This document shows, one piece after another, positions 55,341-60,655 of a stretch of DNA of 64,000 nucleotides (position 1 is its first letter; each line of letters begins with the position of its first letter). The notes below the pieces were generated by a model. That model was given only the letters and a program-made list of their open reading frames with translations, made no database searches and was not told where the DNA came from. The position numbers were made by a program, and so were the translations under genes. Source of the stretch: Deltaproteobacteria bacterium. GTDB taxonomy: Bacteria > Myxococcota_A > UBA9160 > UBA4427. The DNA is taken from assembly GCA_002691205.1 (NCBI GenBank), contig NZHD01000029.1, forward strand, positions 1 through 64,000. Direction: 5' to 3'.

Positions 55341-56110
55341 GGAGCGTCTCCTTGACCGGCACCCACATCCATTCGCGTCATCCAAAATTGCCCCTTGAAA
55401 TCTGTGCCTTTCTGATAGGTCCCGGACATCCGGTGCCCGTTCGTGTCTATTTGGTCCGTCGAGAAACGCGTTGTGGCCTCAAGAACCTCTGTGCGAGCCG
55501 ACCCCATCCTGTCGCTTCGGCTGAAAACCGGAAACCCATCACGCAAGCGTATCTCCCAGAGTTCGTGGTAACCCACCATCGAAGCCGAACCTGAGCGAAG
55601 CGCTCCGGCCGACTGCCATCCTTTCGACGGAGAGCCTCGCAAAGATTTTGAACGAGCCGAATAGGAATCGACCTTCAATCCCGCTTTAATCTCTGCGATC
55701 TGATCCGCACTCGGCGACCACACGCCCGGGGAACGAGCCCGTAACCCATCCTCCCTGGACTCATAGCGGCCTTCATTTCGTTTGAATTCCACGTGGGGAA
55801 ACAGCGTCCACCGAAAGCTCTTCCCCACGGATTCAATCTCCCAAATTTGGTCTTCCCATCGGGGTTCGGCGGGGTCGAGATCCGACTCCGGATCCAAGTG
55901 AACCAAGACGTACCATCGACCCAAAAATGGCTCTTGAGCGGACGCCGGGGCACTCTGAGCGTCCACAGGTTGCGCGGTCGAGGTGGCGGCCCAGAGCACA
56001 AGACTCATCACTCCCACAACACACAGATTCAACGTGAGACCTAAGCCCATGAGACCCACCGCGGACTCAGGGGTCCCAAGGCTCGACTTTTCCCAGCGGT
56101 AAAACGGCAA
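55337..56110 (-). CDS. Hypothetical exported protein, possibly lipocalin-like beta-barrel
   Basis: Hydrophobic N-terminal segment; EPFLGRWYVLVHLDPESDLDPAEPRWEDQIWEIE; repeated strand-like segments; 4-nt overlap with downstream GNAT start. Confidence 0.65.
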   Translation of the reverse strand: MPFYRWEKSSLGTPESAVGLMGLGLTLNLCVVGVMSLVLWAATSTAQPVDAQSAPASAQEPFLGRWYVLVHLDPESDLDPAEPRWEDQIWEIESVGKSFRWTLFPHVEFKRNEGRYESREDGLRARSPGVWSPSADQIAEIKAGLKVDSYSARSKSLRGSPSKGWQSAGALRSGSASMVGYHELWEIRLRDGFPVFSRSDRMGSARTEVLEATTRFSTDQIDTNGHRMSGTYQKGTDFKGQFWMTRMDVGAGQGDAP

Positions 56111-56271
56111 AAATTTTCCTCATTTGAGACGATCAGGGTCGTTTGACTCACTTTATCCAGAGACCGTCAGGCTAACGAGTAAAAAATGAATCTTCCATTT
56201 TTGGCCGAAAGAGCGGATAATTGGGAGATCTTCTGCCGGTCTAGTGACAAATCTTTGGACCCGAGCTGGAT

Positions 56272-56286
56272 TGGCACATGAATTGC
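56272..56286 (+). promoter_or_regulatory. Sigma-54 (-24/-12) promoter upstream of the 56357 gene
   Basis: TGGCAC-atgaa-TTGC; G(-24)-to-C(-12) spacing of 12; lies in the divergent intergenic region upstream of a sigma-54 regulator operon. Confidence 0.8.
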
Positions 56287-56323
56287 GCTTGTCTCCGGGT
56301 GTAGACTTGTGTCTACAAGCGCA
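56284..56323 (+). promoter_or_regulatory. Nested inverted repeats overlapping the -12 box and predicted transcript 5' end
   Basis: Outer TGCGCTTGT/ACAAGCGCA (9 bp), inner TGTAGAC-TTGT-GTCTACA (7 bp, tetraloop); the arms share ACA so they are mutually exclusive. Confidence 0.65.
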
Positions 56324-56356: not shown

Positions 56357-58387
56357 ATGCTGACCATTTGGATCGTCCACCGAGATGCCAAACACCGCGC
56401 TGCGCTGACCCGAATGGTCGGTGCGGGAGACGGAACCATTTTGGGTGGACCCATGGATCCTATCTTCCAATCCGCGACGCCCCCCAACGTCGTCTTGCTG
56501 GGTCTCTCCGGAGACTTCGAGGAAGAACTCGATTTCGTTCAACGGTTTGGAAACCACTGGCCTGAGGCGGCTTGGATTCTGCTGACTTCGCCCCAAGACC
56601 GAACGGACTCGCAACGCCTTTTCGATACATTGAAGGCCACCCACCTTTCTTATCCACCCGACCCCCTTGAGCTTCGGCGAGCGGTTCGCGTTGGGCTTCG
56701 CAAACGTCGAATCGAACCTCTTTCAAGCCGCTCCACCCGAAAAGGTCTGGGCCAAAAATTTCGGCGATGGTTTAAGAATATCGAGCTCCCCGAATTGGGG
56801 CGCAGTCTCGATCCGAGACTCTCACAAGTTTCGGTGCTCATTCGTGGCGAGCGGGGCACCGGTCGAAGTCTCCTCGCCCGATACATCCACGCTTTTGGAG
56901 GCCGGGCAAACGCTGACTTCATCACAATCCCAACCGAAGGAATTCTGTCCGCCGAAGGCCTCCTCGGCCGGATCAGCGCCATTGCCCAAACCACCCAGTC
57001 TGACTCCGCGGTCCTTTGGCTTGAAGAGGCTGACCAACTGCCCGTTCACGTTCAACGAACACTCAGAGACTGGGTCGAATTCGGCCTTCCTCCAGGATCC
57101 ACTCATTTTTTGAGCCTTCGTTGGATCGCGGGCGCCGGACCCGAAACCGACTTCGATCGAGAACCCGGACTGGATCTGCAACTCACCGAAGTTCTCTCCG
57201 CTCTTTCCATGCAAGTTCCCGCGCTTCGCGACAGACATGGGCACATCCCCGAACTCATCTCCGAGGCGGCCCAAGTCTGGTGTCAAAAACACGGCGAAAC
57301 CACTCGCCATTTCAGTCCGGAAAGTTTGGACTTGCTGTCCTCCTACCCCTGGCCAGGGAACCTGCATGAGCTTGAATCCGTGGTCGGACGGAGCCTCGCT
57401 TTTTCAGCCGCAGACCCCATGCAACCCATTCATCTCCGCTTCCCCAGCGACAGCCACTGGCTCGACCGATTGGAAGGCGAAATCGAGCCCAATCAGTCTC
57501 TACGCTCTGAGCCTGAGCCCCTTGAGACGTACGAAACTCTCTCTGAAGCCACTCTGATCGAGGAGAACGAAGCGATCATCATGGGTGAGCCCGTTCTTGA
57601 ACCGGAGACCATCACCGAAGAACCCCACACCCCGGTGGAAGAACCCCTAGCGGCCGAAGAAGTAGTTCCCGAACCCACCCTCAGCGGTTTCCGATCCACG
57701 GCGAATGAAAAGACCGAAGCCGACCCTAACGAATCAGAGCCTTCTGATTTTCGACGCTTGGTCAATGCCGTGGCCCATGAGGTCCGCAACCCCCTGGTGT
57801 CCATCCGCACATTCTCAGAGCTTTTGCCCGAGCAATACGAAGATCCGGAGTTCAGGGATCAGTTCAGCCAACTGGTCAGGCAAGATGTCAACCGAATTGA
57901 TGCCGCCGTATCTCGTCTCCAAAATATGGTTGAACTCCCAGCCATTCAGTCTGAATCTGTCGATATGGCCCATTTGCTCGACAAACTGCTCGAGGAGCAC
58001 AACGATCAGATCCGAGAGCGCCGATTACTGATCCTGAAAGAATTAGACCACCGATCGCCTCATGTGGTGGGCGACCCTCTGCTTTTGCGAGATGCCTTCA
58101 GCGGCCTCCTCACGCGGACCCTGAACCAAGTCAGTGACGGTGGAGACGTTTACATCGCCTCAAAACACAGCGACAGTCGCCTGGGCGCGAGCCCGTCTCT
58201 TCGGGTGCTCCTGCGATACGCCGTCAGCCACCCCGAAGCCCTCAATCCGAGAGCAAGTCACGAAGATTTAGACGGCATCATGGCTCAAACCATCATTCAA
58301 TCCCTCGGCGGCCGCTTCACCCTCGATACCACCGATGGCGAGGAATGCGTGATCGTCATCGACCTCCCCGCCCCCGCCACAGACTGA
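56357..58387 (+). CDS. Pseudo-receiver / degenerate sigma-54-type AAA+ / degenerate histidine kinase fusion
   Basis: Receiver-like fold without phospho-Asp (VVLLGLSGDF); GERGTGRSLLARYIHAFG (Walker A Lys to Arg), LWLEEADQLP, YPWPGNLHELESVVGRSLAFS; HisKA AHEVRNPLVSIRTFSELLP; HATPase-like C-terminus. Alternative GTG start at 56309. Confidence 0.82.
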   Translation: MLTIWIVHRDAKHRAALTRMVGAGDGTILGGPMDPIFQSATPPNVVLLGLSGDFEEELDFVQRFGNHWPEAAWILLTSPQDRTDSQRLFDTLKATHLSYPPDPLELRRAVRVGLRKRRIEPLSSRSTRKGLGQKFRRWFKNIELPELGRSLDPRLSQVSVLIRGERGTGRSLLARYIHAFGGRANADFITIPTEGILSAEGLLGRISAIAQTTQSDSAVLWLEEADQLPVHVQRTLRDWVEFGLPPGSTHFLSLRWIAGAGPETDFDREPGLDLQLTEVLSALSMQVPALRDRHGHIPELISEAAQVWCQKHGETTRHFSPESLDLLSSYPWPGNLHELESVVGRSLAFSAADPMQPIHLRFPSDSHWLDRLEGEIEPNQSLRSEPEPLETYETLSEATLIEENEAIIMGEPVLEPETITEEPHTPVEEPLAAEEVVPEPTLSGFRSTANEKTEADPNESEPSDFRRLVNAVAHEVRNPLVSIRTFSELLPEQYEDPEFRDQFSQLVRQDVNRIDAAVSRLQNMVELPAIQSESVDMAHLLDKLLEEHNDQIRERRLLILKELDHRSPHVVGDPLLLRDAFSGLLTRTLNQVSDGGDVYIASKHSDSRLGASPSLRVLLRYAVSHPEALNPRASHEDLDGIMAQTIIQSLGGRFTLDTTDGEECVIVIDLPAPATD

Positions 58388-58469: not shown

Positions 58470-59840
58470 ATGCCGTCCGTCCTAGTCGTCGATGACGAGC
58501 CCGCTGTCCGTGAATCGTTGCGCATGCTTCTTAAGAAGGAGTGCGACGTGGAAACGGCGGGCAGTGTGGATGCTGCCCTTGAAAAAGTGAGCGGCGCGGT
58601 CCCCGATCTTGTCTTGCTCGATGTCGTCATGCCGGGTCGCAACGGGCTGGAATTTATTCCGGAGCTCCGAAATCTCGGGATCGACTGTCCTGTGATCGTA
58701 CTCACCGCCACAAATACAGTCAGTGTCGCGGTGGAAGCCATGAAGCTCGGCGCCGCCGACTTCGTAACCAAGCCCTTCGAACTCGATGCGCTCCGGCTCA
58801 AAATTCGACAACTGCTTGAACACCAGAGCCTCGCGCAAGAAGTCGTCCGACTCCGAGATGAAGTCGCACAAAGACAACAACTCGGAAAAATGATCGGTCG
58901 CAGTTCTGTCATGCAGGAAGTGTTTCGGACCATTGAACGATTGGTGGAATCCTCGGCCACTGTTCTGATTACCGGTGAAAGTGGCACCGGCAAAGAACTG
59001 GCTGCTCGAGCGATTCACGACCTCTCCGAGCGTAACTCAGGAGCCTTTGTCCCCATCAACTGCGGTGCTATTCCCAGAGAACTCATCGAAAGTGAGCTCT
59101 TCGGCCACGAAGCCGGCGCTTTCACGGGAGCTAAAGAACGCCGAATCGGCCGCTTTCAAGCCGCTTCAGGAGGCACTCTTTTTCTCGATGAGATCGGCGA
59201 ACTGGAGCCAAGCCTCCAAGTCAAACTTCTGCGAGTACTACAAGAGCGAACCATCGAGCCCTTAGGGAGTTCAAAATCGATCCCCGTGGATGTCCGTGTT
59301 CTCGCAGCCACGAACCGCGACCTTGAAGCTGAGATCGAAACCGGCAATTTTCGGTCGGATCTTTATTACCGAATCAACGTCGTGCCCTTAAGTCTCCCAC
59401 CGCTTCGAGAAAGGCGAGAAGATGTGCGCCCCCTCGTCGCCACATTTCTAGCCCGGGTGTTTGAACGAAATAAAGGCTCGGCCTCGGAACATCCTCCTAT
59501 TTCTGATCGGGCTCTCGCCGCTCTGACCGAATATGCGTGGCCCGGAAATGTCAGAGAACTCGAAAATGCCATTGAACATGGACTCGCTATGTGTGCGGGG
59601 GATGAAATCGAAATCGAACATCTTCCCGTTTCGGTGCGACGCTCTGGACGCGCCGAGGCCCTTCGCGAAGATTGGCGAGCGGGTAAACTCGACTTCGACG
59701 AAGTTCTCGCTCGATTTGAGCGAGAACTTCTACGAGAAGCCCTTGAGCGAGAAGATGGAAATCAAACTCGAGCCTCAGCGGCTCTTGGAATTACCCGACG
59801 CGTTTTGAAGCTCAAAATGGACAAATTCGGGCTTAGCTGA
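58470..59840 (+). CDS. Sigma-54-dependent NtrC-family response regulator
   Basis: [14 protein letters not shown]...[42 protein letters not shown]; Fis-type [29 protein letters not shown]. Confidence 0.96.
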
Positions 59841-60096
59841 GCCGGTCCCGAGACAGAAACCCATCGCTTGAGCGACTTAAGAACTCTGTACGTGTTGGAA
59901 CGCCGGCACGTCGACGCGCACTTTTGGGAACACTTCAAATATCCCTGTTTTTTCAATGAGTTACACGTGTTCCTTGGAAGCACTGTTCCCGAACGTACGT
60001 GGGCCGGGCCCTTCCGGCACAGGTTGAGTTGACCAGAGGGGCAGAAAAGTCAACGAATTCAATAGATTAAAAGGACCCCTGGTCTCCGCTCCAAGC

Positions 60097-60112
60097 TGGC
60101 ACGGCCTTTGCT
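60097..60112 (+). promoter_or_regulatory. Near-perfect sigma-54 (-24/-12) promoter immediately upstream of the PilZ gene
   Basis: TGGCACG-GCCT-TTGCT matches consensus TGGCACG-N4-TTGCW exactly. Confidence 0.88.
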
Positions 60113-60124
60113 TTATCAAGCGCT

Positions 60125-60655
60125 ATGGAGACTTCAACCCTATCCCTCGAAGATCAGAATATCCCAACCCACACCCCTCTCGATGAGTGCCTTGTGGCGC
60201 CCCGATTGAGACCCCAATTCGCACCCGAAGAGGATCATGACCTCGAAGCCGACTTTCCTCCGCGCAAAGAAAAGAGAGAGCACGTTTTCCGCGTCGCGGA
60301 ATACAGCCTTTACCCGCGCAGCCGTCGAGAGCAACGTCGACTCTCGGGCTTCATTCGAAACGAGTCCAGATCCGGACTTTGCTTGGTTTCAAAACAAACG
60401 GAAGGTGTGGGGAGCTGTCTTCGAATCGGGCTTCAGGGCGTCGATGGAATTCCGACTCGGGATGTCCTGGCTCGCGTCGTTTGGGCCCAGCCTCAAACCG
60501 ACGGGAGACACTGGTTGGGGCTGACTCTTCTCGATCAGGTGCCGTCTACCCAAACCGAGGCCATTCGAACTCCTTTCAGCCGAGGGGACCAAAACGAAGC
60601 GTCTCGGCCCGAGTTTCAACCATGGCCACGCAAGCAGCTTCGGGCCGCTTGTTAA
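60125..60655 (+). CDS. PilZ domain protein (putative c-di-GMP receptor)
   Basis: YPRSRREQRRLSGFIRNESRSGLCLV carries RxxxR and [D/N]xSxxG motifs; RDVLARVVWAQPQTDGRHWLGLTL. Confidence 0.8.
   Translation: METSTLSLEDQNIPTHTPLDECLVAPRLRPQFAPEEDHDLEADFPPRKEKREHVFRVAEYSLYPRSRREQRRLSGFIRNESRSGLCLVSKQTEGVGSCLRIGLQGVDGIPTRDVLARVVWAQPQTDGRHWLGLTLLDQVPSTQTEAIRTPFSRGDQNEASRPEFQPWPRKQLRAAC

Follow-up and report, generated by a model that had tools for sequence, protein, structure and literature searches.

A conserved fusion of degenerate receiver, AAA+ and histidine kinase modules encoded with an intact σ54 response regulator in uncultured Myxococcota

By analogy, the nearest functional precedent for the protein described here is PhyT (formerly PhyP) of Sphingomonas melonis, a histidine phosphotransferase that is thought to be kinase-derived, combines a conserved His with a degenerate ATPase domain and is encoded at the locus of its response regulator (PMC5898713). 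Both proteins have His and Asn in the DHp domain, a degenerate ATPase domain and a gene at the response regulator locus; PhyT, however, is membrane-anchored with a periplasmic sensor, carries an HRxxN motif, acts on PhyR and lacks the pseudo-receiver and pseudo-AAA+ domains found here (PMC5898713). Spo0B and ChpT are likewise described as dimeric DHp-type phosphotransferases derived from kinases (PMC3433190; PMC5898713). Pairs of the NtrB/NtrC type (CrdS/CrdA, NtrB/NtrC and ZraS/ZraR) combine, as does this locus, a HisKA-type DHp bearing the H-E/D-x-x-T/N motif with an NtrC-type σ54 regulator, but their kinases have a working CA domain, whereas the DHp studied here is joined to a dead receiver-AAA+ part and lacks an ATP site. 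RetS, DivL and the ChrS pseudokinase are likewise histidine kinases that have degenerated or been repurposed and are retained for regulatory binding; these act mainly on or with other kinases, while the linked partner of the fusion is a response regulator and its His is strictly kept.

Unlike the fusion, Spo0B and ChpT stand alone, carry neither a receiver nor an AAA+ part and are not known to be linked to a σ54 regulator. The atypical enhancer-binding proteins (bEBPs) FleQ and VpsR, which are among the nearest folds to the N-terminal module in Foldseek searches, share with it the receiver-AAA+ fold and a non-standard receiver, but both still bind DNA and retain a usable AAA+ domain, whereas the fusion has no HTH, GAFTGA loop or R-fingers. 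The original prediction, made from the sequence by a model, was aware of no characterised family with this architecture, and no description of it was found in the open-licence papers searched. The functional kind is known (Spo0B, ChpT, PhyT); the architecture and wiring appear to be new.

Architecture, catalytic losses and distribution of the fusion

The window, i.e., the whole 64,000-nucleotide stretch that was analyzed (contig NZHD01000029.1), carries the fusion gene and its domains as follows:
56357 (ATG) to 58387 (stop), + strand: fusion gene, 676 aa, encoding pseudo-receiver, pseudo-AAA+, linker, DHp with intact H-box and pseudo-CA
56363..56704, + strand: pseudo-receiver, residues 3-116, receiver fold with Gly49 at the phospho-Asp position and Tyr99 at the position of the KP Lys
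56720..57442, + strand: pseudo-AAA+, residues 122-362, Walker A GxxGxGR, WPGN lid kept, no GAFTGA loop or R-fingers
57482..57736, + strand: disordered Glu/Pro-rich linker, residues 376-460, pLDDT below 50
57746..57940, + strand: DHp domain, residues 464-528, H-box AHEVRNP with His474, Glu475, Asn478 and Pro479, Pfam HisKA
57953..58372, + strand: pseudo-CA domain, residues 533-672, HATPase-like fold lacking the N, G1 and G2 boxes

A GTG in the same frame at 56309 is a possible alternative start. Transcription would begin near 56298, as placed by the σ54 -12 element at 56283-56286, and would leave this GTG too short a leader, so that the ATG at 56357 is preferred.

Pfam matched HisKA (E 6.9e-10), AAA_lid_14 and part of Sigma54_activat in the fusion protein, and HisKA in 42 of the 43 orthologues scanned. 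Response_reg, HATPase_c and HTH_8 gave no match in the fusion or in these 43 orthologues, which agrees with the predicted absence of a C-terminal Fis HTH. An AlphaFold2 model built from a 43-row alignment (mean pLDDT 85) folds into a receiver (4-116), an AAA+ domain (122-360), a disordered linker (376-461), a DHp hairpin (464-525) and a CA-like domain (533-671). Foldseek matched the N-terminal half of this model to NtrC1 and NtrX and the C-terminal half to the kinase regions of ZraS and RetS; the three methods together identify a receiver plus an AAA+ fold with an NtrC-type lid. The order originally proposed (receiver, AAA+, Glu/Pro-rich linker, HisKA, HATPase-like end) is thus borne out by AlphaFold2 and Foldseek, the AAA+ fold included, and as judged from the model the domain reading is right, though sequence profiles miss two of the domains.

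All strings quoted in the original prediction (VVLLGLSG, YPPD, GERGTGRS, LDLQLTEVL, GNLHELE, AFSGLLTRTLNQ and AHEVRNPLVS) are present in the ORF. When orthologues with intact motifs were searched for as a refutation, the losses proved instead to be conserved across the order to which the window belongs: Asp is absent from the phospho-Asp position in 68/70 members (present in 2/70), the KP Lys is absent in 70/70, the Walker A Lys is replaced by Arg in 67/70 and the N-box Asn is absent in 71/71, while the GAFTGA loop is missing from all fusion orthologues. Moreover, Walker A and Walker B are separated by 45-61 residues in the fusions of the order, compared with 64 in the neighbouring regulator. 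The final two P-loop glycines are invariant within the order, and the H-box His is present in 67 of 72 members. The claim that every catalytic signature is eroded holds for the receiver, Walker A, GAFTGA and N-box, but Walker B is altered, being mostly E-D where D-E is expected, and not erased. Similarly, GNLHELE does occur at sensor II, but the replacement of Arg by His does not characterise the family, as this variable position is Arg in 26/53. Structural residues are near-invariant while the same losses recur across 79 proteins. Judged by the residues that define each class, the fusion does not qualify as a bEBP, as a receiver or as a histidine kinase, and autokinase activity is excluded on the basis of the missing N, G1 and G2 boxes. 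Three members of the order (L034, L035 and L051) have the Walker A Lys; L034 and L035 represent one genus nested within Arg-bearing relatives, where the Lys looks like a reversion.

Whole-genome searches found fusion orthologues, either full-length or cut by a contig end, in about 73 of the 80 genomes of the order and in 9 of 11 genomes of a sister family in the same class. None was found in the other 288 genomes of the phylum, where the best matches were ordinary bEBPs covering only the receiver-AAA+ part. The named ortholog-bearing records are MAGs labelled Myxococcota, Myxococcales or Deltaproteobacteria. Synteny is largely kept, also in the sister family: a short unannotated gene, a GNAT gene and an aminotransferase gene lie upstream on the opposite strand, and TatA and TatC lie downstream. 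Judged from these comparisons, the fusion is a conserved protein family and not a product of decay. The closest orthologue (62-63%), with full synteny, is in a record titled Spirochaeta sp. MED672 (L072, NZGT01000112.1), a label that is probably wrong.

An origin by duplication of the adjacent regulator is not supported, as ordinary bEBPs elsewhere in the phylum outscore it against the family profile (up to 148 bits for some, compared with about 102-132 bits for the neighbouring regulator); three of these higher-scoring bEBPs were read and are intact. Two further degenerate proteins were seen. A stand-alone 318 aa relative of the DHp/pseudo-CA half (L175:3367-4320, - strand) has no His at the H-box position and no Pfam match. 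A second degenerate bEBP (L213:1033-2478 and L214:983-2407, both + strand) has a receiver without phospho-Asp and an AAA+ domain without GAFTGA, keeps the Walker A Lys and the HTH, and adjoins an intact bEBP on the opposite strand.

Coupling of His474 and Asn478 to the neighbouring response regulator

The proposed partner of the fusion is encoded directly downstream:
58470..59840, + strand: NtrC-type σ54 response regulator (REC, AAA+, Fis HTH), intact

As predicted, this regulator is intact, with Asp, Lys, Walker A and B, GAFTGA, R-finger and sensor II preserved in essentially 57/57 pairs. The H-box, also described as intact, is recognized as HisKA by Pfam, and both His474 (59/59) and Asn478 (59/59) are present in every orthologue that has the regulator downstream and a readable H-box. 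By comparison, His is kept in 4 of 17 proteins from regulator-less genomes (3/8 in the order and 1/9 in the sister family, in which TatA-TatC follow the fusion with no regulator between). The three such members of the order that keep His (L180, L181 and L186) are readable as cases of recent regulator loss. In the whole genomes tested, the regulator was missing and not merely unlinked at a threshold of E 1e-120, which is safe within the order (orthologues score about 500 bits or more) and less conclusive for the divergent sister family; the exception is G033, where the regulator lies 15 kb away and His is kept. In another genome, the fusion and the regulator are separated by a glutathione S-transferase-like gene and by two additional receiver proteins, of which one has a GGDEF-like tail (L139:5966-9600).

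Within the order, His and the regulator are associated by Fisher's exact test (p 6e-6, with related rows). On the tree, regulator status and His each change 7 times; among 5 well-supported independent pairs, a number that cannot reach 0.05, 3.7 agree on average and none disagree, i.e., His follows the direction of the regulator or shows no difference, never the opposite. Conservation of the DHp relative to the other domains falls from 1.27 with the regulator to 1.13 without it (p 0.0004), and the drop persists when H/E/N/P are removed (p 0.003), whereas the receiver, AAA+ and CA domains show no drop in regulator-less genomes. These data suggest that the DHp serves the regulator and that the rest of the protein may serve something that remains after the regulator is lost. 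Covariation between the fusion and the regulator singled out no domain pair at an effective number of about 40, which is too few sequences.

HisKA proteins require the acidic residue next to the His for kinase activity alone, and the Thr or Asn at H+4 for phosphatase activity alone (PMC3510030). In the fusion the H+4 residue is the Asn478 found in all 59 regulator-bearing proteins, and the acid is Ala in one regulator-bearing clade, while His and Asn are invariant in such proteins. For HisKA phosphatases the His is not essential, but in phosphotransfer it cannot be bypassed (PMC12632262). Its strict conservation despite being dispensable for phosphatase activity leads us to lean towards phosphotransfer; the Asn at H+4 is required for phosphatase and not for kinase activity, which makes a pure phosphatase almost as likely. 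Phosphotransfer as in Spo0B, ChpT and PhyT is therefore only slightly favoured. The fusion has what those proteins have, a conserved His on a DHp and, as predicted from sequence and model, a CA-like domain unable to bind ATP.

σ54 promoters and downstream genes

Two putative σ54 promoters with two different upstream dyads, one set before the fusion and one after the regulator, were absent from the original prediction:
56106..56119, + strand: putative enhancer dyad A, GGCAAAAATTTTCC, consensus GGAAA-N4-TTTCC, 166 bp upstream of promoter 1
56272..56287, + strand: σ54 -24/-12 promoter 1, TGGCACATGAATTGCG, 70 bp before the fusion ATG
59985..59998, + strand: putative enhancer dyad B, GTTCCCGAACGTAC, a weak instance with 2 mismatches to the consensus GTTCC-N4-GGAAC
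60097..60112, + strand: σ54 promoter 2, TGGCACGGCCTTTGCT, the sole perfect match in the window, located 13 bp ahead of the PilZ gene
60125..60655, + strand: PilZ-domain gene (Pfam PilZ, E 3.6e-05), probable output of promoter 2

Of 78 relatives, 68 have a match to promoter 1 with at most 2 mismatches ahead of their orthologue, and these include regulator-less ones. Promoter 2 was found within 1 mismatch after the regulator stop in 40/57 rows (37/51 distinct genomes), compared with 0.6% of shuffles, and in relatives it precedes PilZ or REC-HD-GYP-PilZ. The exact pattern TGGCAC-N5-TTGC occurs only 12 times in the 4.55 Mb genome (4 in the reversed control), and two of these are at this locus. Within 2 mismatches, dyad A was found in 57/71 relatives compared with 3.8% of shuffles, and the dyad B consensus in 27/29 compared with 8%, although the exact fractions are optimistic because discovery and counting of the dyads shared part of their data and the shuffles were mononucleotide ones. 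At the opposite promoter, neither dyad occurs more than slightly above chance. Dyad A is also present in 6 of 7 regulator-less members of the order, where it stands 134-148 bp ahead of the -24 element. Genome-wide, the strict dyad A pattern was not found 100-130 bp from a -24 element, a range that does not cover the site in the window (166 bp). A σ54-like site in L198 with a 1-mismatch dyad only 29 bp upstream lies inside a repeat-protein gene and was judged to be chance.

In many relatives a REC-HD-GYP gene (in L058, a REC-HD domain protein) lies between the regulator and PilZ; this gene is not present in the window. PilZ and HD-GYP genes are absent downstream in the three regulator-less genomes whose gene order was read (L038, L071/L180 and L142). 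The simplest reading of this arrangement is a cascade in which another bEBP would activate the fusion and the regulator, and the regulator would activate genes related to c-di-GMP. Another exact core-pattern site in the same genome lies ahead of a gene for an ammonium transporter, which is a textbook σ54 target. At L201, L203 and L207 of this genome, σ54 sites lie upstream of the ammonium transporter and of two other bEBPs, and these sites are candidates for the rest of the σ54 network.

Predicted role and alternative readings

We hold it moderately likely that the fusion is a conserved triple pseudoenzyme which works as a kinase-dead histidine phosphotransferase or phosphatase for the adjacent regulator, with a non-catalytic receiver-AAA+ module, inside a σ54 cascade. 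The fusion and the regulator would be co-produced from a σ54 promoter under a different bEBP. The DHp would then dock the regulator and move phosphate on or off it via His474, with assistance from Asn478. As the CA domain has no ATP site, the fusion should be unable to autophosphorylate, and its own receiver, considered as phosphodonor, has no Asp; the phosphate would come from another receiver or kinase, or the fusion would mainly drain phosphate from the regulator. The pseudo-receiver and pseudo-AAA+ domains may together make up a module without catalytic function, for sensing or docking, that directs the DHp and has, in addition, a role independent of the regulator. The regulator would most likely go on to activate promoter 2, leading to PilZ and, in many relatives, HD-GYP output. 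Computation supplies the predicted folds, the shared losses, the intact state of the regulator, the link of His and Asn to it and the promoter and dyad motifs; the physical interaction, the direction of phosphate flow and the assignment of proteins to dyads are what we infer.

A wider version of this proposal, in which the dead receiver, AAA+ and kinase form an undescribed class-wide controller of a σ54 cascade, is doubtful. Here a first bEBP would make the pseudoenzyme and the second regulator together, the pseudoenzyme would gate the phosphate of that regulator, and the AAA+ module would act on σ54 activation more widely.

Poisoning of the adjacent regulator's AAA+ ring, with the pseudo-AAA+ domain inserted into it or capping it and the kinase half serving only as a dimeriser, is unlikely. 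An AAA+ fold with an NtrC-type lid is retained, a poison subunit would likewise lack R-fingers and GAFTGA, and hetero-ring bEBPs such as HrpR/HrpS are known. However, genomes that lack the regulator show no decrease in AAA+ conservation, whereas that of the DHp falls, and His474 and Asn478, which are irrelevant to poisoning, track the regulator. In a variant, the AAA+ domain could act on other bEBPs. The suggestion that the fusion mixes into or titrates the ring is thus less supported than its alternative, a phosphotransfer platform, which is strengthened by the loss of His474 and Asn478 only in lineages without a linked regulator. The observation that a non-catalytic fusion of the NtrC/NtrB type is conserved and paired with an intact σ54 regulator is confirmed, and the interpretation first given to it is partly supported.

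Heterodimerization with an active histidine kinase, which would phosphorylate the DHp in trans or be modulated itself in the manner of RetS-GacS or ChrS-HrrS, is likewise improbable. ChrS-HrrS heterodimers have been seen in BACTH assays (PMC9491836), and the structural match of the C-terminal half to the kinase region of RetS is consistent with such a role. Against it, the stretches read between the fusion and the regulator or downstream contain no linked kinase gene, the acid required for kinase-type phosphorylation is Ala in one regulator-bearing clade, and His tracks the regulator and not a kinase.

A reading that is compatible with the preferred phosphotransferase or phosphatase role, and in itself quite unlikely, takes the N-terminal module as a FleQ/VpsR-like sensor of c-di-GMP or another nucleotide that couples the second-messenger level to the regulator with the DHp as output. 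The proximity of the FleQ and VpsR folds and the PilZ and REC-HD-GYP genes at the same locus point this way, but Arg175, which we take to be the counterpart of the FleQ c-di-GMP residue, is variable (Arg in 64/78, otherwise H, Q, A or S). Lineage-specific decay, which would make the losses meaningless, would accord with the missing catalytic signatures and with the few genomes that have no copy of the gene, but it has a negligible probability and is already refuted by the orthologues, whose frames are open, whose losses are the same in 79 proteins with near-invariant structural residues, and whose promoter and enhancer dyad are conserved; a pseudogene or assembly artefact was rejected on the same evidence of orthologues, open frames and conserved promoter.

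The fusion represents a natural experiment on the role of pseudo-two-component proteins. Where the partner regulator is encoded the His persists, and where it is missing the His has usually gone, a pattern that provides a specific, testable functional prediction; the pseudo-receiver-AAA+ half indicates that an NtrC-like module can be under selection with hardly any catalytic residues left. The fusion defines a new protein family and, on the reading preferred here, a two-step σ54 circuit in uncultured Myxococcota.
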